From Oligoflexus sp. (GTDB lineage Bacteria; Bdellovibrionota_B; Oligoflexia; Oligoflexales; Oligoflexaceae), in NCBI GenBank assembly GCA_030151925.1, contig JASLCY010000336.1, positions 1 to 15,806 of the forward strand: DNA of 15,806 bases, given 5' to 3'. Under the pieces are notes generated by a model. That model was not told the DNA's origin and did no database searches. It saw only the letters and a program-made list of their open reading frames with translations. The position numbers were made by a program, and so were the translations under genes. This document shows positions 1,530 to 15,806 of this stretch, one piece after another; within the stretch, counting starts at the first letter, position 1; each line of letters starts with the position of its first letter.

Positions 1530-1553
1530 AGCTCCCTCGGCACAGCAAGAACT

Positions 1554-1594
1554 AAAAAAGCCGGCTCCCGCGAGGGAAGCCGGCTTGCGTTTTT
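1554..1594. terminator. bidirectional intrinsic terminator between convergent genes
   Basis: A GC-rich stem (AAGCCGGCT-CCC pairing with GGG-AGCCGGCTT, one bulged A, GCGA loop, 1558-1586) is flanked by a T run at 1590-1594 on the plus strand and an A run at 1554-1559, which reads as a U tract on the minus strand. It lies between the convergent HD-GYP and M23 genes and can stop transcription from both sides. Confidence 0.8.
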
Positions 1595-1623
1595 AGGAGA
1601 GGACTTGGGAGCCCGGTCGACGC

Positions 1624-2394
1624 TCAGTGAGCGTAGTCGCGGCTGAGGTGCGGCAGCGGATCCATCGCCAGGTTGTCGAGACCCTGGTATTCGAAGTGGA
1701 GGTGAGCGCCGTGCGCGTTGCCGGTTGCGCCGACATGCGCGATCTTCTCGCCGACGTCGACCGCTTCGCCCTTGTGCACATAGATCTTCGAGCAATGCGC
1801 GTAGAGGGTCTTGAAGGTCTTGTGGTTGATCACCACGGTATTGCCGTATCCGTGCTTGCGACCGACGAACTCGACGGTTCCGCCTTCAGCGGCCAGGATT
1901 TCCTTGCTGGTCTTAGGGAAGATATCGAGGCCCGCGTGGCGACGGCCCGAACGCGGCCCGAAGTGCGAACGCACGAGACCGTTCTCGAGCGGCCATTCGA
2001 TCTGCCGATACTGGCTATAGAGCTCCGCGCGCCGGCCCGTGGAAGGCGCATCAACATCACGTCTGGCGTCATCATCTTTAGACAAGCCCGCTGGTTTATC
2101 GACCAGCTTACCTCGTCCGCGCAAGTCAGTAGACTCGAGAGCCTCCTCACCAACGGGGATATAAATCAGTTGTCCGGGTTTAAGCTCTTCGTCAGAGCCA
2201 AGATGATTCAAGCGTTGGATGCTGAGGGGGGCGACCGCGTATTGCTGTCCGAGAGTTAGGAGAGACTCGCCTTCTTGAACTTGATACTCGAGAACTTGGC
2301 GATTGTCCGTGCCCGGAGGAGCCGGGAGGCGGTGAGCGCAGCTGAAAGCGGCTGCGGTGCTTGCGAAGATGGCAAGCGCTTTGATCGTCTTCAT
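1624..2394 (-). CDS. LysM and M23-family metallopeptidase lipoprotein (peptidoglycan endopeptidase or amidase activator)
   Basis: A 256-aa protein read from ATG 2394. An in-frame GTG lies three codons upstream at 2403, but it abuts the AAGGAAG ribosome site with no spacer, whereas ATG 2394 has eight bases, so ATG was chosen. The N-terminus MKTIKALAIFASTAAAFSC is a lipoprotein signal with a somewhat weak lipobox (AFSC; Cys19). A LysM domain follows (residues about 36-80: YQVQEGESLLTLGQQY to GQLIYIP), then a charged linker, then a C-terminal M23 domain. All M23 catalytic features are present: HxxxD zinc ligands (H153, D157 in HAGLD), H200 in YAHC, and HLH (H231, H233) in HLHFE. The active site is complete, unlike degenerate EnvC/NlpD proteins, so it may cut peptide cross-links directly. 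It is likely anchored in the outer membrane facing the wall. Cell-wall remodelling near an envelope machine is plausible, but a functional link is inference. Confidence 0.92.
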   Translation of the reverse strand: MKTIKALAIFASTAAAFSCAHRLPAPPGTDNRQVLEYQVQEGESLLTLGQQYAVAPLSIQRLNHLGSDEELKPGQLIYIPVGEEALESTDLRGRGKLVDKPAGLSKDDDARRDVDAPSTGRRAELYSQYRQIEWPLENGLVRSHFGPRSGRRHAGLDIFPKTSKEILAAEGGTVEFVGRKHGYGNTVVINHKTFKTLYAHCSKIYVHKGEAVDVGEKIAHVGATGNAHGAHLHFEYQGLDNLAMDPLPHLSRDYAH

Positions 2395-2504
2395 CGTGAC
2401 CACTTCCTTATCGTAGGTTGCGAGAGCGTGTTGTCTGATGCTTCAGGCGCCATCGCCAGAAATTAAGACAACCAGTCCTAACTCCCATCTCAAAGAGACG
2501 AGGG

Positions 2505-2519
2505 GTACTCAGAGTACTC
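2505..2519. repeat. short inverted repeat GTACTC-A-GAGTAC
   Basis: A perfect inverted repeat of six bases around a single A (2505-2517), with the overlapping 8-bp palindrome GAGTACTC at 2512-2519. It lies about 110 bp upstream of the M23 start. The size and symmetry fit an operator for a dimeric regulator, but no regulator can be named. Confidence 0.4.
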
Positions 2520-2526
2520 GGTAGCT

Positions 2527-2546
2527 GTGACACCCTAGGGGTGACA
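2527..2546. repeat. direct repeat GTGACA flanking palindrome CCCTAGGG
   Basis: Two identical hexamers GTGACA (2527-2532 and 2541-2546) flank the 8-bp perfect palindrome CCCTAGGG (2533-2540). The repeats are 14 bp apart start to start. Together with the inverted repeat ten bases away, this makes a compact cluster of symmetric elements in the M23 upstream region. The role is unknown; a protein-binding site or small RNA structure is possible. Confidence 0.4.
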
Positions 2547-2727
2547 AAAGAACATTCGAGTAGGAACACTCTACCCCAAAACTGTCTCCTTGCGAACCCA
2601 CAAATTGCAATTAAAGTCGATAATTAGCCGCGTCACTTCTAAATTATATATAAGAAACGGTGCTTTATCTTTTTTTTCGAAGTGTCCTAACGAGAAAACA
2701 TTTCAGTTTTATACCCGCCCTAAACGC

Positions 2728-2756
2728 AAAAAAGCACGTCCTTGTGAGACGTGCTT
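2728..2756 (-). terminator. intrinsic terminator of the FHA/AgmX-domain gene
   Basis: A perfect 9-bp stem AAGCACGTC/GACGTGCTT (2732-2740 and 2748-2756) with a 7-nt loop is followed, on the minus strand, by six U residues (A run at 2728-2733). It lies 20 bp past the stop codon of the minus-strand gene that ends at 2776. Confidence 0.85.
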
Positions 2757-2775
2757 GCGCGGATTCGAGACAAAA

Positions 2776-4944
2776 TTACATAGGGTTGAAGACGAAGGGA
2801 TAAGTGACGTTGACGTTCTGGCCGCCGCGTGGCGTTGGGAACTTCCAACGGACGATCTTACCCGTCACACAGCCCGACATCGTCGCATCACCGATCGTAT
2901 CCGAGTTGATCGTCGCAGCCGATACACGGCCCGTCGCGTCGATCGTAAAGTTCACTTTAACCTTACCGCTGGCGCTAGGCGAACGCTGGAGGAGCGTTTC
3001 GTAGCAGTGGCGGATCTGGTTGAGGTTCGCGCGGATCACCGCCTGCACTTCCTGGTTCGTCAAACCACCGCTGACGACCGGGTCGCCGGGAGGCACTTCG
3101 ACAGACGCGCGGCCGTTGCCCGCTCCCTTGCCGTCACCCTTACCGAAGCCCGAGCCGAGACCGGCGCCGCCGAGGCCGCCGGCGCCACCAGCGCCCGAAC
3201 CCGTGCCACCGAAACCACCGAAGTTGTTACCGGCCTGGCCCGTACCGGCCATACCGAGGGTTTTACCCGCACCTGGACCGCCGAGGCCCGTGGTCTTGGC
3301 CGCTGAGCCTGAACCACCGCCCGCACCGCCAGCCGCGCTCTTGAAGTCGGTCTTGATCGCGCCAGCCGCTTTGCTGTCGAGGATCTTGCCGACGCCGAGA
3401 CCGAGCTGACTGAGGTTCACGCCCGAAGCTTTGTTCGGCGCGCCGCCTTCCACACCCGCGAGATCGGTCTTGGTATTACCCTTCCGCTCACCGCCGGCCG
3501 CGTCGTTGCGTTTACCGCCGCCCAGCGGACCGCCGCTGAGGCCTTGCGCTTTATTCGGATCGACCTTACCCGGGTTCTTCATATCGGCTTTGTCGGGAGC
3601 CTTCGCCATGCCAGCGGCCTTCGCCGTCTCTTTCTTCTCGGGCGTCGGCGCCTTGGGCGGCGCGACCTGCGGAGTCGGCTTCTGCGCGAGCTCCTTCACC
3701 GGCTGAGGCGTCGGGAGCGGCTGCTTCACCTGCTCGACCGGCTTCGCCTTCTCTTCAGGCTTCACAGGAACCGGCGGCTTCGGGGGCGGCTTGGGAGGCT
3801 CGACCTTCTTGGGCGGCTCCTTCTCCACTTTCGCCACTTCGACCTTCGGCTTCTCGGGCGGCTTAGGGACTTCTTTGGTCTCCGGTTGGTTCACGATGGA
3901 CCAGATATCGTCCTTGTCGTCCTTCTTCGGATTCTTCGACAGGTAAATAGCGGGGATGACCGCGAGGTAGACGAGGGCCGCGAGCGTCATCAGCATGACG
4001 AAGAACGGGTCGCGGGCGCTCTTGCGCGGCAGGTCGAGGACCGGAGGCTTGATGAACATGAGGAAGTATTTCACGGCCCCGTGCGTGATATGAGCGATAT
4101 CGTTCTTGCTCATATCGATCGTGGCGTCGCCCTTCTCCTCGATCACGCGGCCGCCCTTGCGGATGCGCGCGCTCATGTCCGAGGAGAGGTGGACGGTGTA
4201 GCCGTCCTTCTGCACCGAAGCGAGCTTATAGCGCTTGATGTCGCCCGTGCCGCCGGCGATGAAGTGCGCCTTGCCCGGCGTACCGATCGTGACTTTCTCG
4301 AAGTTCTTGATCTTGGGGTGGAACATGTCCACGTCGAGAATCGTGTCTTCCCAGTAGGCCACCACTTCGAGCACGTTACCGCTCGGCTTGGCGTTACGCG
4401 GGTTGAAGAGGGGCTCGACGGCGTCTTCGCCGTCCGATCCCCTGTCGTGCCCGCCCGGATCAGCCAGTACCGTTGACCTTGGATCATCACTCATGTCGTC
4501 TGCATGCTCCGAATCTTCATCGTCATCGTGTCTCGCCGCAGCTGCATTCCGGACGTTGGCGCCCGCGACTACCGTCTTCTTCACAGACAGATTCTTGGTG
4601 TCGCCGGCTTGGGCCCGATCCTCCAGGCGTGGAGCGAGGGCGGGAGCCGCCTGCACCACATGGACTTCGACTTGAACGTTGCCGATCGTTATCTTGTCGC
4701 CGATCTCTATAGGGGACTCGACGTCGACCTTCTTGCCGTTCAGGAGCACGCCGGACTGCGAGCCGAGATCGGTGAGAATGTGGACGCCGTTTTCCAGGAC
4801 TTCTATCATCGCGTGAATGGGCTCCACGCCGGGCGCGCGGATCACGACTTCATTCGATAACAAGGAACCGATCATCAGCCGGTCACGGACGGGCACCACC
4901 TGTCGCGACTGACCTGGAGGCGAATAGTGAATCTCGAGGTTCAT
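2776..4944 (-). CDS. FHA-domain, single-pass membrane protein with Pro/Lys-rich, Gly-rich and C-terminal AgmX/PglI (TonB-like) domains; GltG-like
   Basis: A 722-aa modular protein. In order: FHA-like domain (1-97, DLGSQSGVLLNGKK), acidic linker (140-180), a second folded cytoplasmic region (about 186-300) I do not recognise, one transmembrane helix (about 313-336), Pro/Lys-rich stretch (355-435), Gly-rich low-complexity stretch (470-610), and a C-terminal AgmX/PglI-type domain (625-722) with IRHCYETLLQ, SGKVKVNFTID and the ending VNVTYPFVFNPM. C647 and C692 sit where the family has paired cysteines. The layout puts FHA in the cytoplasm and the TonB-like tip in the periplasm, as in PglI/GltG of the Myxococcus gliding machine. 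Unlike active FHA domains it lacks the GR Arg and SxxH Ser used for phosphothreonine binding. ATG 4944 has AGAGGA six bases upstream. It is the last gene of the motility locus but is separated from it by a terminator, with 139 bp for its own promoter. Confidence 0.88.
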   Translation of the reverse strand: MNLEIHYSPPGQSRQVVPVRDRLMIGSLLSNEVVIRAPGVEPIHAMIEVLENGVHILTDLGSQSGVLLNGKKVDVESPIEIGDKITIGNVQVEVHVVQAAPALAPRLEDRAQAGDTKNLSVKKTVVAGANVRNAAAARHDDDEDSEHADDMSDDPRSTVLADPGGHDRGSDGEDAVEPLFNPRNAKPSGNVLEVVAYWEDTILDVDMFHPKIKNFEKVTIGTPGKAHFIAGGTGDIKRYKLASVQKDGYTVHLSSDMSARIRKGGRVIEEKGDATIDMSKNDIAHITHGAVKYFLMFIKPPVLDLPRKSARDPFFVMLMTLAALVYLAVIPAIYLSKNPKKDDKDDIWSIVNQPETKEVPKPPEKPKVEVAKVEKEPPKKVEPPKPPPKPPVPVKPEEKAKPVEQVKQPLPTPQPVKELAQKPTPQVAPPKAPTPEKKETAKAAGMAKAPDKADMKNPGKVDPNKAQGLSGGPLGGGKRNDAAGGERKGNTKTDLAGVEGGAPNKASGVNLSQLGLGVGKILDSKAAGAIKTDFKSAAGGAGGGSGSAAKTTGLGGPGAGKTLGMAGTGQAGNNFGGFGGTGSGAGGAGGLGGAGLGSGFGKGDGKGAGNGRASVEVPPGDPVVSGGLTNQEVQAVIRANLNQIRHCYETLLQRSPSASGKVKVNFTIDATGRVSAATINSDTIGDATMSGCVTGKIVRWKFPTPRGGQNVNVTYPFVFNPM

Positions 4945-5030
4945 TCACGTTCCTCTGTCATCAAGATCGAAATAAAAACACTAATACAACTATTATTGCG
5001 TGTTAGGTGGCAAATGGGAAGCTTTCTTGG

Positions 5031-5067
5031 CAAAAATTAGAAAGGCCCACATTTTGCGTGGGCCTTT
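5031..5067 (-). terminator. intrinsic terminator after the TPR lipoprotein gene
   Basis: A perfect 10-bp stem AAAGGCCCAC/GTGGGCCTTT (5041-5067) with a 7-nt loop is followed on the minus strand by CTAATTTTT. It sits 16 bp past the stop of the TPR lipoprotein gene and closes the seven-gene operon before the FHA gene. The following leader (4945-5030) is AT-rich and should hold a promoter for the FHA gene, but I could not find a good -35/-10 pair. Confidence 0.8.
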
Positions 5068-5083
5068 GCGGTCGGTTCCTCAG

Positions 5084-6268
5084 TTATTTTGCGGGCGGCG
5101 GCGGAGCGTCGCCGCCTTTGTCCGCCGGAGCCCCGCCGCCGGCCGGCGCCTGCGCGCCGCCTTCCGCGGGCTTAGCCGGCGCTCCGCCCTTCGCCGCTCC
5201 GGCCGCATCGGCTTTCGCCTTCGCCGCCGCGCGAGCCGCCTCCGCCTTCGCAGCGCTTTCTTTTTGCTGCTGCATTTGGAGGTCTTTTTCGATTTTACCC
5301 AAAACGAGGAACGATTTCTCGTCGATCGTCGAAGGGCCGCCGCTCAGCTTGCCGATATGCTCGAGGTCGGTCCGGGCCTTGGCGAGGTTGCCGAGGCCCT
5401 GGTATTCGTTCAGGGCGCAGCTGAAGAGCGCGGGCTTGTAATTGGGCTTCTTCTCGAGGATGGTCTTGCAGAGGCTCGCCGCCTCGTTCGAGTTGTCCGC
5501 GAGGCGCTCGGCCTGCATCTGTCCCGTCATCACGAACCAATCGCGGTTCACGCCTTCGAACATCGCCTTGGCCGTTTTGTAATCGCCGTACTTCAAAGCG
5601 GTGAAGCCGATGTTGAGCCGCGCGGGCTCGTAATCGCTCTTCGCCTTCAAAGCGTCGTTCCAGAAGGCGACGGCTTCGGGCAGGCGGTTATCGAGCAGGG
5701 CTATCATGCCTTCGGCCGTGTAGGCCGCGGCCTTCGTCTTGGGGTTCTTGCTGCGCAGGAGCTTGCCGATCCAGTGCTCGGCCATGGGGATCTGCTTCGA
5801 TTGGATCGAAGCCAGGGCGAGCTCGAGCATCGCGACTTCGGGCATCTCGCGTTTGATGTCTTCCTTCATCTCGACGATCATGAGGCGTTTCGCGATATTG
5901 AAGACCGGGACGACGCCTTCGCCGGCGAGGCGCTTCGCGGCCATCAGGGCGACGAGGTCCTTACGGTCCTTGCCGGTCGGATTCTTGAGTTTGCCTTCGA
6001 GATCGTCGGCGTTGTTCTTCGCCTTGGCCGAGTTCACCGTATAGGGCGTCAGGCCGTTATTGCTCAAACTATAGACGAAGGTCCCGCTGCCGGACGAGGA
6101 ATAGCTCTCGTCGTCCCGGCCGCCCTTCTTGCCGCTATCGTCGTCATCGTCGTCTTTCGAGGACGCCGATTCCTTGCCCTCTTTCTTCTTCTTGCCGCCT
6201 TCCGTCGTCGCGCACGACGTGAGGGTGACAGCGGCCGCGAGCAGACCGACTTGCCAAAGTCTTTTCAT
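5084..6268 (-). CDS. TPR-repeat outer-membrane lipoprotein (GltE/AglT-like by context)
   Basis: A 394-aa lipoprotein. The signal peptide MKRLWQVGLLAAAVTLTSC ends in a clear lipobox (LTSC, Cys19), followed by Ala-Thr rather than Asp, so outer-membrane sorting is expected. Residues 25-60 are a charged, disordered linker with a run of six Asp. Residues about 120-310 are helical TPR-like repeats (for example AAYTAEGMIALLDNRLPEAV and ARLNIGFTALKYGDYKTAK). The tail (about 320-394) is Ala/Lys-rich, then Gly/Pro/Ala-rich low complexity. The ATG overlaps the TGA of the upstream 1029-aa gene by four bases (ATGA), indicating translational coupling. A TPR lipoprotein in a TolQ/TolR/OM-barrel operon fits AglT/GltE of the Myxococcus machine, but TPR sequences diverge fast and orthology is unproven. 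The gene ends at an intrinsic terminator. Confidence 0.85.
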   Translation of the reverse strand: MKRLWQVGLLAAAVTLTSCATTEGGKKKKEGKESASSKDDDDDDSGKKGGRDDESYSSSGSGTFVYSLSNNGLTPYTVNSAKAKNNADDLEGKLKNPTGKDRKDLVALMAAKRLAGEGVVPVFNIAKRLMIVEMKEDIKREMPEVAMLELALASIQSKQIPMAEHWIGKLLRSKNPKTKAAAYTAEGMIALLDNRLPEAVAFWNDALKAKSDYEPARLNIGFTALKYGDYKTAKAMFEGVNRDWFVMTGQMQAERLADNSNEAASLCKTILEKKPNYKPALFSCALNEYQGLGNLAKARTDLEHIGKLSGGPSTIDEKSFLVLGKIEKDLQMQQQKESAAKAEAARAAAKAKADAAGAAKGGAPAKPAEGGAQAPAGGGAPADKGGDAPPPPAK

Positions 6269-9200
6269 TGACGATCTCCCTTGAGGCCGGAGGTGACGTT
6301 ACCTGCCAATTCCGAACCGAGGAAGTCCGGCGTGACTACGTAGTCGTCAAACTGCAACTTCTTGCCCGAGAGGCGGCTGATGCCGCCGAGGACGCGGATC
6401 GACCAGTCGTTGTAGACTTTGAATTCCGTTACAGTCTTCTGAGCGGTGACATACCAGTTCATAGCAACTTTTTTGCGTTCGGCGATCTGCGGCGCGAGCT
6501 CCTTCAGCACATCTTCCTTGCTCGCTCCCTGGATCGCGGGCGGGTTCGACAGAGCGTCCGCGAAGTTCTCGTTCGCGAGGCCGAGCTGATAGAGGGCCGC
6601 GACGCCCCAGTAGGAGTCCTTGGTGTTCGCCACGCGGCCGAGCTGCTGCTCGACCTGCTGGAGGCCGACCGCCTTCTGCTCGATCGACTTCGCGAGGTCG
6701 TTGACCGTGCCGCCGACCAGCGTGATCTTCATGAAGCGCGGCAAGGCGCCTTCCACTTCCTTGTAAGTGAGCTCGCCGACGTAGCGGAGGGCCTCGCCCG
6801 AGACGGCCGAGGGATTCTGGGCGAAGACCTGCTTGATCTGCGCCGCGGCCTGGGCCGCTTCGCCCGAGCCTGAGCGATAGATGCGGTAGAACGCTACGAT
6901 CTGCTGGTTCGGGCTCAGCTTGAAGCGGTTCAGGTATTGGGTCTTGATGATCGTGACGAGCTGCTCGGTGCGTTTCGCGCGTTCGGCGCCTTCGATCAGC
7001 TCCTCGGTGAAGGCCTGCGCGCTCGAAGGATCCTTCTCCGCGAGCACGTTGCAGGTCGAGAGCGCTTTCGCGGTGTTCAGCGCGATCTGCAGCTCGCATG
7101 CGCTGGCGAGGGCCGGAGCGGACTCCTTCTCCTTCGGATAGCGCTTCGCGAACTGCACGTAGTATTCCGAGGCCTTGTCGTATTCGAGCTGCTTCTCGTA
7201 GATCTGGCCGACCTGGAGGAGCGAGTCCTTCGCCTGGGGCTTGTCGGGGAACTTCGTCACGATCACGAGATAAGCCGTGATCGCCTGGGGCACGGCTCCC
7301 GCCTTGAGGTAGTCGACGGCGGCGTTGTACCAGAGTTTATCGACATCGGGGTCGGTCGGGTATTTACGCGCCTGGGCTTCATAACGCTGCGCGCGCTTGA
7401 AGGTGTCGCCTTCCTTCGAGATGTCTTCCTTCTCCGCGCCGCGCTGGATGTTGCGCAGGTCCTGGCCGACCTTGCCGTTCCGATACTCGGGCACTTTCAA
7501 GAGGAAGTTCGCCACCGCGAGGAGCTGCGTCCTGTCGTTCTTGACGATAGGCACGAGGGAGTCGACCGCGTTCTGGCCTTCCTTCTCCTTCGAGTATTTC
7601 ACCGCTACGTTCTTGAGGTACTTGATCGCGTTGTCCTTCTGCCCCGAGTGGTAGTAGACGTCGGTCACGCCGATGTCGCAGGACTTCACGCGTTCCTTAT
7701 CTTCCGGATACCACTGCACGTACATCGAGCACGCCTTCACGTAGTTGCGGGCGCGCACCGAGATGGGCTTCGGCTTCGTGAAGTCGGGCTTCTCCTTCTT
7801 GAGGACCTTGAACTCGGGCTCGAAGTCCTTCACGAACGCGCCCACCATGTTGATGGACACTTCCTTGTGGATGTTCTCGCCCTTGTCGTCCTTCTTCACG
7901 TACTTGACCGCGTTGGCCTTGCCGAGGCTGGCGATCTCGAGATCGTAGCGGCCGGAAGCCTTGTAGTCCTTGAGGTAGTATTCGATATCCGCGAGGTAGT
8001 ACTTCACCGCGGTGACTTCGCGGGCCTTCGGGTAATACTTCAGGAAGAGGAGGTAGCCCTTGCGCGCCTCGAGGTTGCCCTCGCGATTGTCGTCCTTGAT
8101 CGCGTTCTGGTGGGTGAAGGTCGCGTAGTAGAGCATCTGGTCCTTGATGTCGCTTTGCGTCTCGAGCACGAGGTTCTTGTCGTTCGCCTTCGCCCAGGCC
8201 GAGTTCGGGCCGTACTGGAGCGCGTAACGCTCGAGCTCCACCCAGACCTTAGGCATGGTGCCGACGGCCGCGTAGAGCGAGATGATCTCCTTCTGGGCGT
8301 CCGCCGCGCCCGGGTCGTTCGGCACGAGGCCCTGATAGCGCTTCAGGACCGAGATGGCCTGGGCGTAGGCGCCCTGGTCGGCGAGGATCTGGGCGAGCAG
8401 GGTCAGGAACGGGCCGATGAACTGCGTCCCGCCGTTGGCGCGGTAGTAGGCGATCGCCTCGTCGATCATCTTGAGCTCGGCGAACGAGTAGACCATGTCG
8501 CGCAGCGCTTCCTCACGAAGGTTCGCGTCCTGGCCGTTCGAGCCCTTCGCCAGGGCGACGAGCTGCTTCCAGTAGGCGAGCGAGCCCTTGAAGTCCTGGA
8601 GGTTGTAGGCGCACCAGCCGAGCTTGAACATCGACCAGAGGTAGCGCTTCGAACGCTTGTATTTCAGGGCCTTGACGAAGTTGGTCTTCGAGTTCGCGAA
8701 GTCGTTGCGGTCGAAATAGTAATCGCCGAGGGACGCGTAGGCGTCGCCCGCGATGGCCGAGTTCGGGTATTGCTGGATGAGCTGCGTGAAGATGCGCGCC
8801 GCGTCCTTCTCCTTGCCGAGGTACTGCAGGGCCACCGCCTTGTTGTAGGTGATCTGGTCGGCGTTCTCGCTGCGCGGGTATTCGGTGAGGATCTGCGACG
8901 ACTGGCTGATCACCTTCTTCCAGTGGCCCATCGATTTCGAGGTGTTCAGGCGAGGCTCGGCCCCTTTTTTGCCGCCCGCCTGCCAGGCCTTCCAGACTTT
9001 GTCGTAGTTGCGCTCTTCTTCCGAACGCACGTAGGTCGCCTGCTCCATCTGCAGGTTCAGGACGCGTTCGAGGATCTGCAGCCTTTGGGGCGACTTGGGC
9101 GGCAGGCTCTTCGCGGTCTTCTCGAGATAGGCGGTGGTCTTGTCGATGCCGACGATCAGCTTCTTCTCCACCTGCGTGGCGAAGGCGGCCGAATGGTGCA

Positions 9201-9354
9201 GCTGCGGCGGCTTCTTGGAGCTGGCATCGCTCTTCACGCGTTTGCGTTCCTCAACCTTGAAGACCGCGCGTTTTTGCTCCTGGGCGTACGCGCTATGGAA
9301 CGCAGGAACCAGCGCGAGCTGGAGCAGCAGCAATGTCGAGAGCAGAAAGCGCAT
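6265..9354 (-). CDS. large secreted TPR-repeat protein (periplasmic scaffold of the motility-type machine)
   Basis: A 1029-aa exported protein. The N-terminus MRFLLSTLLLLQLALVPAFH is a Sec signal with a probable cut after AYA (residue 24). Tetratricopeptide-like helical pairs are clear at about 150-265 (ITYNKAVALQYLGKEKDAAR, AYASLGDYYFDRNDFANSKT) and 665-745 (LWYNAAVDYLKAGAVPQAIT, LLQVGQIYEKQLEYDKASEY), with more degenerate repeats between and after. No enzyme motif, membrane segment or lipobox was seen. Its size and place between a 520-aa TPR protein and a TPR lipoprotein suggest a periplasmic connector. Large TPR proteins such as AgnA/GltD and AgmK/GltI occur in the Myxococcus gliding machine, but I cannot say which it matches. 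ATG 9354 has AAGGA six bases upstream. It lies 35 bp after the previous gene and overlaps the next by 4 bp. Confidence 0.87.
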   Translation of the reverse strand: MRFLLSTLLLLQLALVPAFHSAYAQEQKRAVFKVEERKRVKSDASSKKPPQLHHSAAFATQVEKKLIVGIDKTTAYLEKTAKSLPPKSPQRLQILERVLNLQMEQATYVRSEEERNYDKVWKAWQAGGKKGAEPRLNTSKSMGHWKKVISQSSQILTEYPRSENADQITYNKAVALQYLGKEKDAARIFTQLIQQYPNSAIAGDAYASLGDYYFDRNDFANSKTNFVKALKYKRSKRYLWSMFKLGWCAYNLQDFKGSLAYWKQLVALAKGSNGQDANLREEALRDMVYSFAELKMIDEAIAYYRANGGTQFIGPFLTLLAQILADQGAYAQAISVLKRYQGLVPNDPGAADAQKEIISLYAAVGTMPKVWVELERYALQYGPNSAWAKANDKNLVLETQSDIKDQMLYYATFTHQNAIKDDNREGNLEARKGYLLFLKYYPKAREVTAVKYYLADIEYYLKDYKASGRYDLEIASLGKANAVKYVKKDDKGENIHKEVSINMVGAFVKDFEPEFKVLKKEKPDFTKPKPISVRARNYVKACSMYVQWYPEDKERVKSCDIGVTDVYYHSGQKDNAIKYLKNVAVKYSKEKEGQNAVDSLVPIVKNDRTQLLAVANFLLKVPEYRNGKVGQDLRNIQRGAEKEDISKEGDTFKRAQRYEAQARKYPTDPDVDKLWYNAAVDYLKAGAVPQAITAYLVIVTKFPDKPQAKDSLLQVGQIYEKQLEYDKASEYYVQFAKRYPKEKESAPALASACELQIALNTAKALSTCNVLAEKDPSSAQAFTEELIEGAERAKRTEQLVTIIKTQYLNRFKLSPNQQIVAFYRIYRSGSGEAAQAAAQIKQVFAQNPSAVSGEALRYVGELTYKEVEGALPRFMKITLVGGTVNDLAKSIEQKAVGLQQVEQQLGRVANTKDSYWGVAALYQLGLANENFADALSNPPAIQGASKEDVLKELAPQIAERKKVAMNWYVTAQKTVTEFKVYNDWSIRVLGGISRLSGKKLQFDDYVVTPDFLGSELAGNVTSGLKGDRQ

Positions 9355-9389
9355 ACGTGATCCTTATTGAATCGCTAGTCGGATTTCGA

Positions 9390-10952
9390 TTACTTCTCGG
9401 AGCCTTCTTTTTCTCCGCCGCCGGCATCCTTGCGGACGTTGCACTTGCTCGGCATGTTGTAGACGTAGAAACCGAGCTCGTCCTCCCAGTACTCGCCTTC
9501 GAACGGCCAGTACTCGAGGGTCTGGTTGATGTTGAGCTTCTGCAGGCCGCCGATGAACTGGGCCTTCTTATCGTCCTCGCCGATGTTGATCAGCGCGCGG
9601 AGGTTGGCGAGCTTGCCGAGCTGCATCTCGGCGACGATCAGCTTGGTCTGGTTCGAGAGCTCGAGCAGCTGGGTATAGTAGGTGCCGCCCTCTTTATAGA
9701 TGCGCTGCCCGGCGTCGAGGATCGCGGTCGACTTCTTCGCCTCGAGGAAGTTCTGGATATCCTCCATGAGGCCGCTGCCCTTCCAGGCGCCGCCCTTCGA
9801 CTTGAGCGCGTTCAGCTCGCGGTCGGTGAAGCGGATGGTGTCCATCGCTTCGCGGAAGGCGTCGACCTGCGCGAGCTTCTTCACGATCTCCTCGGCCTTC
9901 TTATAGCTGGTGAGGTGGCCGGTCCGGTAATCGTAGACGAACTTGAAGAAGCCCTTGGGATCGCCCTTATAGCGATTCATCATGCCGCGGACGTCGCCGA
10001 ACACGGGTTGGTAACGGTCCTTGAAGCGCTTCATCGATTCCTTCACCTGATCGTAGCGGCACATGCGCAGGAAGGTGATCGCCTGGAGGATGTAGGCCTC
10101 CGGATAGAAGCGGTTGTCGAAGAAGGGCGAGTGGATCGTATGGATGTTGCCCAGGGTGTTGTTGAACTTCTCCATGAAGAAGAAGGCCCAGGACGATTCC
10201 CAGATCGCGTCCAGCCAGTTCTCCGAATCGCGCGGGATCTGCCCGTAGTAGGAGATCGCCTCGGTGAAGCGCTTGATCTCGTAGTTCACGCGGGCGATGT
10301 TCATGAGCGACTGCTCCTGGAGCTCGCGATACTCGGGTTTGTCGCGGGTGCCCGCGAGGACCTTCTCGAAGAGCGCGATCGCCCGCGAGTGGCGGCCCTG
10401 GAGGTTCGCGATCACGCCCTGGTGGAACATCGCGCCGAGCTGATAGGGGCCGGCCGGCACCATCTCGAAGAATTTGTCGGCGGTCTCGAGGCTCTTGTCG
10501 CCGAAAGCCTCGACGCCCTTGTAATAGAAGTAAAATCCGCGAGCCGGTCCTGGGACGTCGGCGAGGCGGATTTCAGACTTGAAGAGCTGGACGATGTGGG
10601 ACTGGCCGAGGCTGATCTTGCTGTTGATCTTCCCGAGCTCCTCGAGCGCCGATCGGAAGAACGGGTTGTCGGCCACCCTCCCCCTGCGCACGATCACGGA
10701 ATAGTACTTGGAGGCCGAGTAGCTCAGTCCCATCTTCTCGAGGGATTGGGCCAGGCCCCATTCCGATTTCCTCTTCTCGGCGCGGTCCGAGCTTTTCGAC
10801 ATCACTTCGAAAAAAGCTTCCGCCGCCTTCGGATAGTTCTTCTTCGCGTACAGATCCTTCGCCTGCTTGTAGTTCGCGAACGCGGCCTGGCTGCCGAGCA
10901 TCGCCAGCACCAGCAGGAGGACTGTTCCCAAATTGTACGAATTCCTAGCCAT
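9390..10952 (-). CDS. secreted TPR-repeat protein, 520 aa
   Basis: The N-terminus has a signal peptide (hydrophobic core TVLLLVLAMLG, probable cut after AFA at residue 26). The mature protein opens directly with a TPR-like pair (YKQAKDLYAKKNYPKAAEAF) and has further repeats to about residue 300, for example AMFHQGVIANLQGRHSRAIA. The C-terminal third is less repetitive and carries a distinctive aromatic-acidic segment, WPFEGEYWEDELGFYVYN, at about 480-498. I believe this recurs in TPR proteins of Myxococcota and Bdellovibrionota envelope clusters, though I cannot check it here. No catalytic motif is visible. ATG 10952 follows GAGGG with a short spacer and lies 14 bp after the OM-barrel gene, so it is in the same operon. 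The likely role is periplasmic scaffolding between the TolQ/TolR motor and the outer-membrane parts. Confidence 0.86.
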   Translation of the reverse strand: MARNSYNLGTVLLLVLAMLGSQAAFANYKQAKDLYAKKNYPKAAEAFFEVMSKSSDRAEKRKSEWGLAQSLEKMGLSYSASKYYSVIVRRGRVADNPFFRSALEELGKINSKISLGQSHIVQLFKSEIRLADVPGPARGFYFYYKGVEAFGDKSLETADKFFEMVPAGPYQLGAMFHQGVIANLQGRHSRAIALFEKVLAGTRDKPEYRELQEQSLMNIARVNYEIKRFTEAISYYGQIPRDSENWLDAIWESSWAFFFMEKFNNTLGNIHTIHSPFFDNRFYPEAYILQAITFLRMCRYDQVKESMKRFKDRYQPVFGDVRGMMNRYKGDPKGFFKFVYDYRTGHLTSYKKAEEIVKKLAQVDAFREAMDTIRFTDRELNALKSKGGAWKGSGLMEDIQNFLEAKKSTAILDAGQRIYKEGGTYYTQLLELSNQTKLIVAEMQLGKLANLRALINIGEDDKKAQFIGGLQKLNINQTLEYWPFEGEYWEDELGFYVYNMPSKCNVRKDAGGGEKEGSEK

Positions 10953-10966
10953 ATGCCCTCGAAGAA

Positions 10967-11818
10967 CTAAAAGAATCGTGAGATGCCCAGAAGCAAGGTG
11001 ATGACGTCATGCGGCGCATCGCTTGCGAACTGGGCGCCGTCGGCCTTCGCTTTGATCGGACTGCATTCCGCGTCCAGCTCGTTGTAGAGGAAGCGGTGGA
11101 ACTTGAACTCGAAGCGATACGCGGTGGTCTTGTTGACGAAATAGCGTTGGCCCGCGCCGACCATGAACGTGGGATAACCCTTGACCTGGTTCTTCGGCAG
11201 GGCCTCGGCGCTCGGATCGTCGGCCTTGGGCGCTTCGCAGAAGTCGGTGTATTTCCAGTTGATCCCGGTCTGGCCGAGGCCCGCCGTGATATAGGTATCG
11301 AAATAAATGAGGCGGCCCGAGGGCAGCTGCCACTTGCCGTAGATCGGCGTGTACTGCAGCGCGAGCTCCGCCAGGTATTGCGTCCTGAAGATCTGCGTCT
11401 TGATGTCGAATTCGTCGAACAGAACGCGCTTATCCTCGCGGTCCACGTTGAGGCCGTAGGACAGCGAGGCTTCGAGGGCGAGCTCTTCCGTGAAGTGGAA
11501 GGTCGCGATGCCGGTGGCCATGAACGTGTAGATGAAGCTCTCGTTCATGATCGCGGTCATCGCCGCGCCGAGCTCAAAGCGCTTGGCCTTGTTGAAGTAG
11601 CGAGGACGGATCACGCGGATCTCGGTGTCCTTGAAGCGCTCGGCTTCGGAACTCTTTTCCTCGACTTTCTTCTCAAGCGCCTTGTCATCCTTTTTCGCTG
11701 AAGTTGCCTCTTCCGCGAGCAGTGGCTGGCTCAGAAACGCAAAAGCCAGGAGTGCTGCGAAGCGACTCCGGCCGGAAGAACGAACGTGTGACAGACACTG
11801 AGGCAGAAGGGCCTTCAT
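10967..11818 (-). CDS. outer-membrane beta-barrel protein (OMP_myx_plus-type; GltA/GltB/GltH-like by context)
   Basis: A 283-aa protein with a signal peptide that has an unusually long n-region (about 19 residues), a hydrophobic core at 20-34 and a probable cut after LLA (residue 35). A short charged, coiled-coil-like segment (40-65) precedes the barrel. The segment VIRPRYFNKAKRFELG (69-84) opens an alternating-hydrophobicity region ending in ISRFF. A terminal Phe is the usual Bam recognition signal of barrel proteins. C194 and C252 lie in two predicted loops and could pair. Such small barrels occur in Myxococcota and Bdellovibrionota, including the gliding-machine proteins GltA, GltB and GltH. 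Gaps are 17 bp upstream and 14 bp downstream. ATG 11818 has AAGGGA upstream. The initiator could lie further in, but the ATG near F20 would leave no signal n-region, so the annotated start is preferred. Confidence 0.85.
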   Translation of the reverse strand: MKALLPQCLSHVRSSGRSRFAALLAFAFLSQPLLAEEATSAKKDDKALEKKVEEKSSEAERFKDTEIRVIRPRYFNKAKRFELGAAMTAIMNESFIYTFMATGIATFHFTEELALEASLSYGLNVDREDKRVLFDEFDIKTQIFRTQYLAELALQYTPIYGKWQLPSGRLIYFDTYITAGLGQTGINWKYTDFCEAPKADDPSAEALPKNQVKGYPTFMVGAGQRYFVNKTTAYRFEFKFHRFLYNELDAECSPIKAKADGAQFASDAPHDVITLLLGISRFF

Positions 11819-11835
11819 GTTTCCCTTTCTTCTTT

Positions 11836-12348
11836 TCAGATCGACTCTTTAGCCACGAGGAGCTTGAACGTGACAAAGTCCGCCTGTTGTCCGGCGAGCA
11901 TGATGCGCTTGAGCAGCTCGAACTCATGCTTCTTGTCCATCTCTATCGTGATTTCGCCGGGCTTGGCTTTTTTCTCGCCGTCGTCGGGTCCGCGCTGGAA
12001 TTCCTCCATCGCCTTCTTGTTGGCCTCGCTGATCTCCAGGAGGGCCTTGTAAACGGGCATGACCGCGCCTTGGCCGATGTCCGCCTGCGGGACCTTGCCG
12101 TTCTCGAGCGTCACGACCTTCTTGTTGTTGATGAGGATCTCGTTTTTATTCACGATGATCGCCGGGACCTCGTCCATCGTCACGAGGGTCACCGAATCCG
12201 GGAGCTCCAGGTTCGCGTCGACGTCGTGGTTGTTCGGATCGGTCGAGTAACTCATCAAAAGGAAGGTTACCAGGATACTGAAGATATCCAGCATCGGGGT
12301 AAGGTTGAGCGAGAGTGACTCGCTTGAATCGCCGCCTGCTGAAGCCAT
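11836..12348 (-). CDS. ExbD/TolR-family motor protein 2 (AglS/AglQ-like)
   Basis: A 170-aa protein with a short cytoplasmic tail, one transmembrane helix (about 19-36, LTPMLDIFSILVTFLLMSY) and a periplasmic domain. D21 in the PMLDI motif is the conserved proton-carrying Asp of ExbD/TolR. The periplasmic part ends in ITIEMDKKHEFELLKRIM, which matches the usual fold with its Asp-x-x-x-hydrophobic helix. Between about 95 and 130 there is a longer, charged insertion (EISEANKKAMEEFQRGPDDG) not seen in the other ExbD of this operon. ATG 12348 has AAGGAG seven bases upstream; the spacing to the previous gene is 16 bp. In the Myxococcus gliding motor two TolR homologues (AglQ and AglS) serve one TolQ homologue (AglR), the same arrangement as here. 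Which paralogue this is cannot be decided by eye. Confidence 0.92.
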   Translation of the reverse strand: MASAGGDSSESLSLNLTPMLDIFSILVTFLLMSYSTDPNNHDVDANLELPDSVTLVTMDEVPAIIVNKNEILINNKKVVTLENGKVPQADIGQGAVMPVYKALLEISEANKKAMEEFQRGPDDGEKKAKPGEITIEMDKKHEFELLKRIMLAGQQADFVTFKLLVAKESI

Positions 12349-12364
12349 GGGCCGCTCCTTTCCT

Positions 12365-12913
12365 TTAGAGAATCACGCTGCCGATGACGACCTTCTCGAA
12401 GATGAAGGCGTCGTTGACCGGCTTGCCGTCCGCGGGGGGCGGCAGGTTAAGTTTAGGCTCTTTTTCTTTAAGCGTCTTGATATTGTCGATGACCTGCACG
12501 AGCTGCTCGTACATCACGGTGTTGTCGGCGTAGACCGTGACCTTGTCGTTCTCGGGCACCTTCTTGCGGAGGTCGATCATCTCCTGATGGAACTTCGCGA
12601 TATCGTCTTTATCGAACTTGAAGGACTTCTCGGACTTATCGTCGGGTGCGGCCGTCCACTGCGAAGTCACCTTCACCTGAGCATCTTCGATGTCAACCCG
12701 GATCGAGAACGAACGCTTGGGCTCGTCCTTCACTTCCGGGTTGTTCGAGAGAAAGGGAACCTGCACTTCGAGGATGCCGAGCCCGAGGAACGCCGCCGAC
12801 ACCAGAAGGAAGGTGTTCAGCATCGAGAAGATGTCGATGAAAGGCATGATGTTGAGCTCGGGTGCGTCCGTGCTCACAGAACTGGCCTGTCTTTTCTTCT
12901 TATGCGATCCCAC
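12365..12913 (-). CDS. ExbD/TolR-family motor protein 1 (AglQ/AglS-like)
   Basis: A 182-aa protein. A basic N-terminal tail (GSHKKKRQ) is followed by a membrane helix at about 25-46 with NIMPFIDIFSMLNTFLLVSA; D27 is the conserved ExbD/TolR proton-path Asp. The periplasmic domain includes KVTVYADNTVMYEQLVQVID, a good match to the family's C-terminal signature. After it comes an unusual Pro/Lys-rich stretch and a hydrophobic end (VVIGSVIL). The start is GTG at 12913: GAGGAG lies six bases upstream and no ATG in frame is as well placed. It lies 18 bp after the TolQ homologue and 16 bp before the second ExbD. The role is a subunit of the proton-driven inner-membrane motor. Confidence 0.92.
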   Translation of the reverse strand: MGSHKKKRQASSVSTDAPELNIMPFIDIFSMLNTFLLVSAAFLGLGILEVQVPFLSNNPEVKDEPKRSFSIRVDIEDAQVKVTSQWTAAPDDKSEKSFKFDKDDIAKFHQEMIDLRKKVPENDKVTVYADNTVMYEQLVQVIDNIKTLKEKEPKLNLPPPADGKPVNDAFIFEKVVIGSVIL

Positions 12914-12931
12914 GTTTCACTCCTCTAAGGC

Positions 12932-13588
12932 TTAGGCCTTTTTGGTGCCTTTGAGTTTCATCTTGCGCGTATAGAGCAGGTCGACGAGCTTCGCCGCGTT
13001 CTTGTTCACGTCGTCGACGATCGACTTCTGCTTCGCCGAGAGGACGCCGTAGCAGAAGAGGCAGAAGAGAGCGGTCGAAAGGCCGAACGAGGTCGCGTTG
13101 AGCGCTTCCGAGATACCTTCCGCGAGGAGGGTCTGCTTCTGGGCGCCGGTGGCCTTGGCAACCGCCGCGAAGGAGCGCATCAGGCCGAAGATGGTACCGA
13201 GGAGGCCGAGGAGCGTGGCGACGTTCGCGGTGGTCGCGAGCATGGCTACGGTCTTGTTGACTTTAGGGACCACGGTGAGGACCGCTTGGTCGACCGCGTT
13301 GGAGATCTCCTGGGTCGAATCGTTCGAGCGCTTCAGGCCTTCCGCGAGGACGAAGGGCAGGAGCTTCGGACGAGCCTTCTTGCAGAGGCGGATCGCGTTC
13401 TCGATCGAGTTGTTCATGACCATCTTTTGGACCATGGCCATGAATCCGTCCGAATTCACGAGGTCGTACTCCATCCAGAGGCGATAGGATCTTTCGATCA
13501 CGAGGGCCAGCGAGATGACAAGCACAGCGAGAATAGAGAACATTACGGGATAGCTACCGGCCTCGAAATAATGATGCAGTGCTTCCAT
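12932..13588 (-). CDS. TolQ/ExbB/MotA-family proton-channel protein (AglR-like)
   Basis: A 218-aa protein with three predicted membrane helices (about 13-33, 113-137, 160-183), the usual TolQ/ExbB layout with a large cytoplasmic loop between helices 1 and 2. The family signature is visible in ATLLGLLGTIFGLMRSF (124-140) and the third helix ALNATSFGLSTALFCLF, with polar Thr and Ser facing a channel. The C-terminus is basic. It is the first gene of the operon and is followed by both ExbD/TolR genes, so together they should form one ion-driven motor. ATG 13588 is preceded by GGAGGT, but at eleven bases, longer than ideal; a nearer upstream ATG (13607) is out of frame. Transcription should begin at the strong promoter at 13675-13704, leaving a leader of about 80 nt. 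Confidence 0.93.
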   Translation of the reverse strand: MEALHHYFEAGSYPVMFSILAVLVISLALVIERSYRLWMEYDLVNSDGFMAMVQKMVMNNSIENAIRLCKKARPKLLPFVLAEGLKRSNDSTQEISNAVDQAVLTVVPKVNKTVAMLATTANVATLLGLLGTIFGLMRSFAAVAKATGAQKQTLLAEGISEALNATSFGLSTALFCLFCYGVLSAKQKSIVDDVNKNAAKLVDLLYTRKMKLKGTKKA

Positions 13589-13674
13589 ATCCTAACCCGA
13601 CCTCCATGATAGGTTGAAGCTTGGTTCACAAGCGACACGAACAAAAGCAGAAATAGCTTTTTGGCTTTAGTAAA

Positions 13675-13704
13675 ATTCTACGAACGTCGCATCCCTTATG
13701 TCAA
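13675..13704 (-). promoter_or_regulatory. strong sigma70-type promoter of the TolQ-TolR-TPR operon
   Basis: On the minus strand, a perfect -35 TTGACA (13704-13699) is followed by an 18-bp spacer and -10 TAGAAT (13680-13675, 5/6). It is the best promoter match noticed in the window. It faces the TolQ-homologue start at 13588 and would give a transcript starting near 13668 with about 80 nt of leader. Confidence 0.7.
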
Positions 13705-13734
13705 CTATCGCCTTGATCTTTCTTCCAATCTGGC

Positions 13735-13763
13735 TGGATTCGCTAGGCAGATTGATTTATAGT
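13735..13763 (+). promoter_or_regulatory. candidate divergent promoter of the pseudo-receiver/ATPase gene
   Basis: TATAGT (13758-13763, 5/6 to the -10 consensus) lies 17 bp after TGGATT (13735-13740, a weak -35). Transcription would start near 13770, with a leader of about 100 nt before the ATG at 13869. It is divergent from the operon promoter, with the two -35 elements about 30 bp apart, so one bound regulator could affect both. The leader also contains an A-rich/T-rich inverted segment (GGAAAA and TTTTCC near 13779-13798). Confidence 0.4.
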
Positions 13764-13868
13764 GAAAGCACTAGCGTAGGAAAAAAAAGCTCTTTTCCGC
13801 TTTGTGCGTTTCGTAATTAGCGGCACACAGGGAAGTTGTTCCAGGAACTTAGGCCAACCAGGACGAAC

Positions 13869-14828
13869 ATGAAATCGACTGCATTATTTGCCGACAGCGG
13901 TGGGTACAAGCCACTTCCGACGATCGAGGCGTTGCGAGTGATAGCGCAGGGGCATGAGCTCGAATCGGTCACCGATCGCGGCGCGGCCTTGTCGGTTCTC
14001 GCCCAACGTCCGAGCGTCGGCCTGCTTATTTCCAACGCACCCGACTTCGAGCTCTTCACGAAGTTCCGCGAGCTCCATCCCAAGGGCCAGGCCATCCTCG
14101 TCACCGATCTGCCGATGAAGGACTACAGCGAGCAGCTGCAGGGCCAGGAGGTGAGGCTGATCGATCATATCGTAGTGAATAAGGGCCGCGAGAATTGGAC
14201 CGTCAACCAACTGCGCATCACCTTGCAGAAGATCCGCACGGGCGACATCTTCGGCATCGCGCAGTACCTCGCGCCCCACACTCCCCTGCACAGCGCCCCG
14301 ATACGCGCTTCTTCGGACCGCGAGATCCTCAACCAGCGCGTGCAGAAGTTCGCCGAGGCTTGCCACCTCGGGCAGCACCTCGCGCGCGTCGCCTTCGGCA
14401 TCACCGAAGAGCTCCTGATGAACACGATCTTCGACGCGCCGGCCGCGGCGGGCATCCAGAGGTTCCAGAATATCGAGCACCATTCCGCGATCATCCTCCA
14501 GCCGGAGGAATACGGCGAGCTCTCCTACGGTTGCGACGGCCAGATCCTGGCGATCTCGAGCTCCGACCCTTTCGGAGCCCTGCGCAAGGAAACCCTCCTG
14601 ACTTATCTGAAGAAGGTGCTGCGCCGCGAAGAGGGCCAGGGCATTATCGACGAGAAGAAGGGCGGCGCCGGCCTCGGCCTGTTCAAGATCCTCTATTCGA
14701 GCCACGGCATCGTCTGCAACGTTCGCCCCGGTCAGCGCACAGAGATCATGGCTTTGATCGACATCAACGACCCGCTGCGCGATTTCTCGACCCTGGCGCG
14801 GTCGATTCACTATTTTTCGACTCCCTGA
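13869..14828 (+). CDS. degenerate receiver fused to a GHKL (HATPase_c) domain, probable regulatory protein
   Basis: A 319-aa protein read from ATG 13869, which has AGGA five bases upstream; a TTG at 13836 in frame is poorly spaced. Residues 1-110 look like a receiver fold (LLIS, ILVTD, HIVVNK pattern), but the expected phospho-accepting Asp is Ser55, while the T79 and K105 positions are retained. Residues about 165-300 look like a GHKL ATP-binding domain: N-box EELLMNTIFDAP (E181, N185), a G1-like DPFG (D233) and a G2-like GGAGLGL (265-271), then a final strand (TEIMALID). There is no His-containing dimerisation domain, so it is not a normal histidine kinase; a SpoIIAB/RsbW-like anti-sigma or Ser kinase, or a pseudo-kinase, is possible. 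No STAS or sigma partner lies nearby. Its divergence from the motor operon suggests, but does not prove, that it regulates it. Confidence 0.8.
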   Translation: MKSTALFADSGGYKPLPTIEALRVIAQGHELESVTDRGAALSVLAQRPSVGLLISNAPDFELFTKFRELHPKGQAILVTDLPMKDYSEQLQGQEVRLIDHIVVNKGRENWTVNQLRITLQKIRTGDIFGIAQYLAPHTPLHSAPIRASSDREILNQRVQKFAEACHLGQHLARVAFGITEELLMNTIFDAPAAAGIQRFQNIEHHSAIILQPEEYGELSYGCDGQILAISSSDPFGALRKETLLTYLKKVLRREEGQGIIDEKKGGAGLGLFKILYSSHGIVCNVRPGQRTEIMALIDINDPLRDFSTLARSIHYFSTP

Positions 14829-14979: not shown

Positions 14980-15806
14980 ATGAAGATCAAAGTAAAAAAT
15001 CCCGTCGTCGAGCTCGACGGCGATGAGATGACCCGCATCATCTGGCAGAAGATCAAAGACAAGCTCATTTTCCCCTTCCTCGACGCGGATATTAAGTACT
15101 TCGACCTCGGCATCGAAAACCGCGACAAGACCGAAGACAAGGTTACGGTCGAGGCGGCTCATGCCATCCAGAAATACGATGTCGGCATCAAGTGCGCGAC
15201 CATCACCCCGGATGAAGAGCGCGTCAAAGAATTCAATCTCAAGAAGATGTGCAAGAGCCCGAACGGCACCATCCGTAACATCCTCGGCGGCACCGTCTTC
15301 CGCGAGCCCATCCTCTGCAGCAACATCCCCCGCCTGATCCCGAACTGGAAGAAGCCTATCGTCGTCGGCCGCCACGCCCACGGCGACCAGTACAAGGCGG
15401 TGGACGTGGATATCCCGACGGCCGGCACCCTCAAGCTCGTCTTCGAACCGAAGGACGGCGGCAAGGTCGAGAGCTGGGAAGTCTTCGATTTCAAATCGGC
15501 CGGTATCGGCCTCGCCATGTACAACACCGACGAGTCGATCGAAGGTTTCGCGCGCTCCTGCTTCCAGTATGCGTTGCAGAAGAACTTCCCGCTCTACCTC
15601 TCGACCAAGAACACCATCCTCAAAGTCTATGACGGCCACTTCAAGGATATCTTCCAACGCCTCTACGACAGCGAGTTCAAGGAGTCGTTTAAAAAGGCCG
15701 GCCTGACCTACGAGCATCGCCTGATCGACGACATGGTCGCGCAGGTCCTCAAATGGGATGGCGGGATCGTGTGGGCTTGTAAGAACTATGACGGCGACGT
15801 GCAGTC
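14980..15806 (+). CDS. icd: NADP-dependent isocitrate dehydrogenase, eukaryotic-type (5' part)
   Basis: The first 275 codons of a protein of about 405-410 aa; the gene runs off the right edge. The sequence follows the dimeric IDH1/IDH2-like subfamily closely ([73 protein letters not shown]). Substrate and cofactor residues of that family are present: T76, S93, N95, R99, R108, R131, Y138, K210, and D273 near the end. One visible change is His134 where human IDH1 has Tyr135 (HAHGDQY). It oxidatively decarboxylates isocitrate to 2-oxoglutarate, making NADPH, in the TCA cycle. ATG 14980 has TAGGAG nine bases upstream. It is likely transcribed from its own promoter and is unrelated to the motility locus. 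Confidence 0.96.

Follow-up and report, generated by a model that had tools for sequence, protein, structure and literature searches.

Does a compact gene cluster in an Oligoflexus genome encode a machine that transmits force across the cell envelope, and how closely would such a machine resemble the gliding motor of Myxococcus xanthus? We addressed this question for a stretch of 15,806 nucleotides from Oligoflexus sp. (contig JASLCY010000336.1), here called the window, in which 8 consecutive genes are located on the minus strand between positions 13588 and 2776. From first to last, these genes encode a motor subunit of the AglR type, 2 TolR-like subunits, an outer-membrane (OM) β-barrel, 2 exported tetratricopeptide repeat (TPR) proteins of the GltC and GltD kinds, a TPR lipoprotein in the GltE position and a GltG-like protein. 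We consider it probable, with a chance of about three in four, that they make up a self-contained, force-transducing trans-envelope machine of the Agl-Glt family that has been kept in the Oligoflexales and Silvanigrellales.

An earlier description of the window made from the letters alone, here referred to as the sequence-only reading, had listed a TolQ homolog, 2 TolR homologs, an OM barrel, 3 TPR proteins and a protein with an FHA domain, a transmembrane (TM) segment and a TonB-like domain on one strand. The list of open reading frames (ORFs) confirmed all 8 at the places described, and the gaps measured between them in the window left no room for a further gene. The proposed homology to the AglRQS-Glt machine was likewise upheld, both by the comparisons of GltC, GltD, the barrel and GltG and by the motor trees.

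The motor subunit (218 amino acids; positions 12932..13588, minus strand) matched PF01618 MotA_ExbB with 88.1 bits and contained 3 hydrophobic stretches. The first and second TolR/ExbD-like subunits, of 182 amino acids (12365..12913, minus strand) and 170 amino acids (11836..12348, minus strand), matched PF02472 with 48.7 and 44.9 bits, respectively, and had one hydrophobic stretch each. In alignments of window-type loci, which are described below, T132 and T166 of the motor subunit (34 rows) as well as D27 of TolR1 and D21 of TolR2, both situated within the membrane stretch (35 rows), were conserved; all 4 are residues of the kind known from the TolQR and MotAB motors. By sequence, TolR1 appears to correspond to AglQ or AglS, either one of the two.

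In 3 phylogenies of the TolQ family, inferred from hand-picked subsets of the matches (58, 58, and 40 rows), the window motor was separated from TolQ and ExbB with support values of 100/96, 100/99, and 98/94. The genes for most members of its group adjoined 2 TolR genes; the members from L137 and L141 lacked a TolR profile match, and the stretch examined for L246 ended after one TolR. The window motor thus groups with the Agl-type motors of the double-TolR kind and with neither TolQ nor ExbB, as judged from sequence phylogeny.

Two loci that we take to belong to Bdellovibrio bacteriovorus HD100 were compared with the window, namely the Bd0828-0838 locus (L178/L179) and a locus at 1.40 Mb (L180/L181). 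The 2 wider motor trees divided the double-TolR group into 2 subtypes. The first subtype (support 87/87, then 94/89, not starred) included the Bd0828-locus motor and proteins of 226 to 247 amino acids from Myxococcaceae, Myxococcota, and Anaeromyxobacteraceae, whereas the second subtype (99/96) included the window clade, the motor of the HD100 1.40 Mb locus and further motors from several Myxococcota genomes. Four Myxococcota genomes with a second-subtype motor also carried a motor of the first subtype. Forcing the window clade together with the first subtype cost 32.7 log units (approximately unbiased test, p = 0.006), for groups that were named after inspection of the tree. It should be noted that the first subtype emerged as one group only with the wider sampling: in the earliest motor tree it was not united, the Bd0828 motor was outermost in the double-TolR group, and the Myxococcota motor L217 clustered with 2 HD100 motors, those at 0.40 and 2.28 Mb. 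The window motor also fell outside the subtype of the Myxococcaceae AglR-like proteins, which were chosen by length as stand-ins for the M. xanthus AglR, itself not included in the tree (245 amino acids; Table 1, PMC3169522). The likeness to the Myxococcus gliding motor put forward in the sequence-only reading holds as kinship within a family, whereas the motor, judged via these proxy proteins, is of a different subtype. It was also observed that 2 Myxococcota genomes (G060 and G062) encode 2 double-TolR motors of different subtypes back to back and divergently oriented (L266 and L269).

The GltC-like protein (520 amino acids; 9390..10952, minus strand) matched the model NF033756 with 220.9 bits (cut-off 450). 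It shared 25% identity with a Myxococcus GltC over 525 columns and 76% with the GltC of Oligoflexus tunisiensis, and its nearest named homologs were from the Oligoflexales or Bdellovibrionota; a comparison with solved structures returned generic TPR chains only. In the GltC tree (85 rows), in which named Myxococcaceae GltC proteins stood in for M. xanthus, the backbone was weak (41), which makes the placement of the window GltC relative to the others tentative. The GltD-like protein (1,029 amino acids; 6265..9354, minus strand) was 24% identical over 933 columns to the GltD of the Bd0828 locus (E 3e-53). In the GltD tree (48 rows), the Myxococcota proteins grouped with a second set of Oligoflexia proteins (support 98), not with the window set. 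Both trees were built from hand-picked matches by a fast search that warned of long branches, and the GltC and GltD proteins of the HD100 1.40 Mb locus had long branches and an unsure placement. The GltC- and GltD-like proteins contained one N-terminal hydrophobic stretch each. TPR-type matches were clear in the 1,029-amino-acid protein and mostly below the cut-off in the other 2 TPR proteins. An open frame of 807 amino acids was observed antisense to the GltD-like gene (6937-9360, plus strand); long antisense frames are expected in GC-rich coding DNA.

The lipoprotein in the GltE position (394 amino acids; 5084..6268, minus strand) had a signal peptide and the lipobox LTSC, both recognized by eye. 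The GltG-like protein (722 amino acids; 2776..4944, minus strand) matched NF033760 with 155 bits (cut-off 650) and gave a sequence match to the GltG of the Bd0828-type locus. It consists of an FHA domain (40.7 bits), a single TM segment (residues 315-333), a Pro/Gly-rich arm and a TonB-like C-terminal domain, for which TonB_C scored 23.9 bits, just below the cut-off of 24.6, and the AgmX/PglI tail model NF033768 scored 108.7 bits (cut-off 40). The GltJ model also matched this protein (61.7 bits, cut-off 450), with the best stretch in the shared tail, and the locus had no separate GltJ.

The OM barrel (283 amino acids; 10967..11818, minus strand) is of the GltA/GltB kind according to the model TIGR04565 (OMP_myx_plus; 74.4 bits, cut-off 60), and its sequence matched the counterpart in the Bd0828-type locus of Bdellovibrio. 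The structure model has 8 strands and is OmpA-like. Neither the barrel nor the GltE-position lipoprotein contained a hydrophobic stretch above the threshold. Directly before strand 1 is the conserved peptide EIRVIRP (barrel codons 66-72; 11603..11623, minus strand), in which V69-P72 were invariant in the 25 aligned sequences, including the window, and to which counterparts were found in Bdellovibrio barrels. This peptide is a candidate TonB-box-like contact for GltG and gives the search for such a contact a concrete starting point. TonB boxes on GltA/B have been considered possible in publications on the family (PMC3169522, PMC3858216, PMC5349195).

To examine conservation, we retained 80 of the 119 confirmed loci from a contig scan and scored them against profiles that were built up from the proteins of the window. 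The window-type loci, selected by their GltC match, numbered 38 (L001-L036, L040, and L048), but since L025/L028 and L033/L048 are contig pairs from one assembly each, they represent a smaller number of genomes. The majority were from the Oligoflexales and Silvanigrellales, with some assemblies labelled otherwise or vaguely. All 8 genes were present in the order and on the strand of the window in 28 of the 38 loci; the other 10 were truncated where the contig or locus ends and agreed up to that point. The arrangement is thus more than a chance neighborhood. Among the 58 genomes of the phylum that were covered, 48 had a GltC match, in 45 cases at E 1e-100 or better, and a weaker GltC match of a second kind was read from the table for 34 genomes, 33 of which also had the strong one. 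Five of the 6 second, diverged loci examined contained barrel-GltC-GltD-GltE and the sixth contained barrel-GltC-GltD up to the contig end (L133:5424-12180, L135, L139, L143, L144, and L145); no motor match was found in these 6 stretches. A third cluster was observed at L137:5676-10787 and L141:10767-15927, which contained genes for an FHA protein, a TolQ-like protein, 2 small proteins and a protein with an AgmX/PglI tail, in a conserved neighborhood with a SecA-like gene (by eye). The motor of this cluster was highly diverged and had no TolR match.

The M. xanthus gliding machine has been described as the product of 14 genes in 3 loci (PMC3169522). The window shares with this AglRQS-GltA-K system AglR, the 2 TolR-like subunits, a barrel of the GltA/B kind, GltC, GltD, a GltE-like protein and GltG. 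With 8 of the 14 genes, no GltF, no second barrel and no space for GltH-K, it was overstated to call the locus near-complete, as the sequence-only reading had done. The suggestion that it is a minimal form confined to one locus fared better, in that the 8 genes do lie together. However, such an arrangement had already been published: aglRQS with gltC, D, E, and G was described as an ancestral core complex encoded in a single region in all of the non-Deltaproteobacteria studied and in Geobacter, with gliding undocumented in most of them according to that account, and Bdellovibrio was credited with 4 expanded Agl/Glt sets (Luciano et al. 2011, PMC3169522). The window resembles the core complex found in Gammaproteobacteria, Geobacter, and others in having the 7 core genes, with GltE assigned tentatively, in one region, whereas it adds a barrel and the core-complex clusters carry an extra gene. 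The Bd0828-0838 locus of HD100 likewise encodes a GltA-like barrel, GltC, GltD, GltE, GltG, AglR, and 2 TolRs on one strand in one locus, but it differs from the window in having 2 barrels, a GltE-GltG space of 327 nucleotides that would fit GltF, the motor gene last rather than first and a first-subtype motor. Given the published core complex and the Bd0828 set, the compactness of the window locus is not new in kind. The HD100 1.40 Mb locus is like the window in its motor subtype, in having the motor gene first and in having one barrel; its order is instead AglR-TolR-TolR-GltD-GltG-barrel-GltC, its GltC is 713 amino acids long and the GltE profile was unmatched. Among the papers listed in searches of the open PMC literature, we recognized none on the locus in Oligoflexia. 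Motor, transducer, scaffold, and OM part occur here together, in one order kept in the Oligoflexales and Silvanigrellales, which makes the locus a small model for studying the function of the core machine apart from the additions found in Myxococcus.

A mechanism can be proposed by analogy. Protons passing through a presumed pentamer of AglR around a TolR1/TolR2 pair would drive GltG, whose FHA domain may sense a phosphorylated partner in the cytoplasm and whose Pro/Gly-rich arm would span the peptidoglycan. Its TonB-like domain would then pull on an OM assembly of the 8-stranded barrel (probably via EIRVIRP), GltC, GltD, and the GltE-like lipoprotein, so that the assembly and a bound polymer or adhesin would move laterally along the cell surface, with surface motility or surface-polymer transport as the biological output. 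For M. xanthus, a contact between AglR and GltG has been reported from two-hybrid data (PMC3169522, PMC3858216), and proton-driven movement has been published for the Glt and Nfs complexes (PMC3169522, PMC3858216, PMC5349195). From its sequence, the most likely identity of the system is an Agl-Glt-family surface-transport machine, the output of which we infer.

Several results weigh against this identification. The profile check proposed in the sequence-only reading did give matches for GltC, GltG, and the barrel, but the first 2 scored well under their NCBIfam equivalog cut-offs, as did the corresponding proteins of the Bd0828 locus (187.6 bits for GltC and 234.2 bits for GltG). The lipoprotein reached only 15.1 bits with the GltE model and was not matched directly by a Bdellovibrio GltE in BLAST, and its tentative assignment is based on position and profile. 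No window-type locus had more than one barrel match, with a profile that detects both barrels of the Bd0828 locus. GltF was not found in the window-type loci, the part of the genomes that was searched for it; the GltE-GltG space ranged from -40 to 251 nucleotides in the 28 complete loci, which is too small for 89 codons, and of the 3 spaces above 200 nucleotides one held a frame of 52 amino acids and the other 2 held no frame of 50 amino acids or more.

If the locus encodes an Agl-Glt-family machine, it may be a gliding motor, functionally equivalent to the A-motility machine of M. xanthus, or it may resemble the Nfs machine and drag or arrange surface polysaccharide or a coat without propelling the cell. 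We regard each of these special cases as possible, at somewhat less than an even chance and with about equal odds between them. The presence of AglRQS and GltA-G has been speculated to mark a potential glider (PMC3169522); the locus has the entire core gene set, with GltE by position, and a GltA-like barrel, but lacks the GltF and second barrel that this rule includes. The myxococcal GltC model gave the window protein a higher score than the GltC of the Bd0828 locus, whereas the GltD tree joined the Myxococcota to the second Oligoflexia set. The position of the window motor outside the subtype of the Myxococcaceae AglR-like proteins speaks against gliding, but this argument is weakened because bd1480 (aglQ) was reported to be surface-induced in B. 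bacteriovorus (PMC9140294), and bd1480 falls in the HD100 1.40 Mb locus, which has the motor subtype of the window (a position interpolated from locus numbers, not taken from annotation). As late as 2026, a review described the gliding machinery of B. bacteriovorus as unidentified (PMC13104615). An MglA-like GTPase, searched with a query picked by eye, was detected in 49 of the 58 genomes; with 41 of 48 genomes that had a GltC match and 8 of 10 that had none (one by a weak partial match), it was about as frequent without GltC, is not linked to the locus and was rejected as proof of gliding. The published descriptions of O. tunisiensis, which has a GltC ortholog, report no motility in the conditions that were applied (PMC4179278, PMC5154148), which counts against gliding and in favor of polymer transport. 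For the Silvanigrellales, the source paper on Fluviispira vulneris contradicts itself on motility, and motile stages have been reported for other members. Transport of polymers has a published precedent in the Agl-Nfs machine of M. xanthus sporulation (PMC3858216), and many Oligoflexia genomes carry the second GltC-D-E-barrel set with no motor match nearby, but genes for polysaccharide synthesis or export were not recognized in the window. By description rather than by sequence, Nfs is like the window in that a Glt-like transducer draws its power from an Agl motor, but it relies on AglRQS encoded in another cluster (PMC3169522, PMC3858216).

A variant of the Tol-Pal or ExbBD-TonB systems, serving general envelope upkeep or nutrient uptake, is disfavored and in our view very improbable. 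Like the window, these systems combine a TolQR-like motor with a TonB-like arm, and the best NCBIfam models for the TolQ homolog were TolQ (66.9 bits, cut-off 221) and ExbB (53.5 bits, cut-off 206.2), with no AglR model among the NCBIfam matches and with ExbB and TolQ as the PDB relatives found by sequence. Best matches of this kind had been named in the sequence-only reading as evidence that would speak against it; they are confined to scores far below the cut-offs, and all 3 trees place the motor in a separate clade. Moreover, the window has 2 TolRs, a TPR scaffold and a small barrel modeled with 8 strands instead of a TonB-dependent receptor, and no match to TolA, TolB, Pal, or a large receptor was obtained among the window proteins scanned against Pfam and NCBIfam. 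The related genomes also have other TolQ/ExbB-like genes elsewhere, with a single TolR match. On the scores and the trees, this candidate was rejected. A machine specific to predation, for entry into or exit from prey, appears just as improbable: gliding and predation have been linked in B. bacteriovorus (PMC9140294, PMC13104615), but growth of O. tunisiensis was obtained on R2A medium, and predation by this species has been predicted without confirmation.

Within the Agl-Glt reading, a more detailed scenario can be outlined, which we consider rather doubtful. The double-TolR motors would have split early into 2 subtypes, and the locus would be the self-contained second-subtype form of the Oligoflexia: a minimal 8-gene surface-transport machine in which GltG pulls directly on a single 8-stranded barrel via EIRVIRP under the control of a divergently encoded receiver/SpoIIAB-like regulator. 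It would have served originally to move material on the surface, and gliding would be a later or optional addition.

The putative regulator is encoded by the divergent neighbor of the motor gene (330 amino acids; 13836..14828, plus strand), which was kept beside 22 of the 28 complete loci. Its AlphaFold2 model (mean predicted local distance difference test score 89.7) has an N-terminal part that is receiver-like, as judged from the order of strands and helices, and a C-terminal part with a SpoIIAB/RsbW-like ATPase fold (best fold match SpoIIAB, E 9e-5), whereas a Pfam search gave nothing over the cut-off. On the strength of this model, the protein may couple a partner-switching signal to the machine, a reading that we offer only as a lead.

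The first 7 genes of the cluster are separated by 18, 16, 17, 14, 35, and -4 nucleotides and have the appearance of a single transcription unit. They are preceded by the promoter-like sequence TTGACA-18-TAGAAT, located upstream of the gene for the motor subunit (13675..13704, minus strand; 11 of 12 consensus positions). The GltG-like gene begins 139 nucleotides after the seventh, past a terminator-like stem of 11 pairs (5041..5067, minus strand), and is followed by a stem of 10 pairs (2732..2756, minus strand). Pattern scans found 4 promoter-like sites where 2.6 were expected (positions 1500-14000) and 16 terminator-like sites where 14.3 were expected; since these counts are near chance, both types of site are suggestive only.

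Downstream of the cluster is a gene for a LysM-M23 peptidase (1624..2403, minus strand; Pfam/NCBIfam, lipobox by eye), which was found at this place in 20 of the 28 complete loci. The adjoining gene encodes an HD-domain protein (HD_5, HD-GYP-like; 339-1529, plus strand) that was shared by L001 only among the loci compared, although many loci may end before that point. At the other end, an ORF that leaves the window (14980-15804, plus strand) resembles NADP-dependent isocitrate dehydrogenase by eye.

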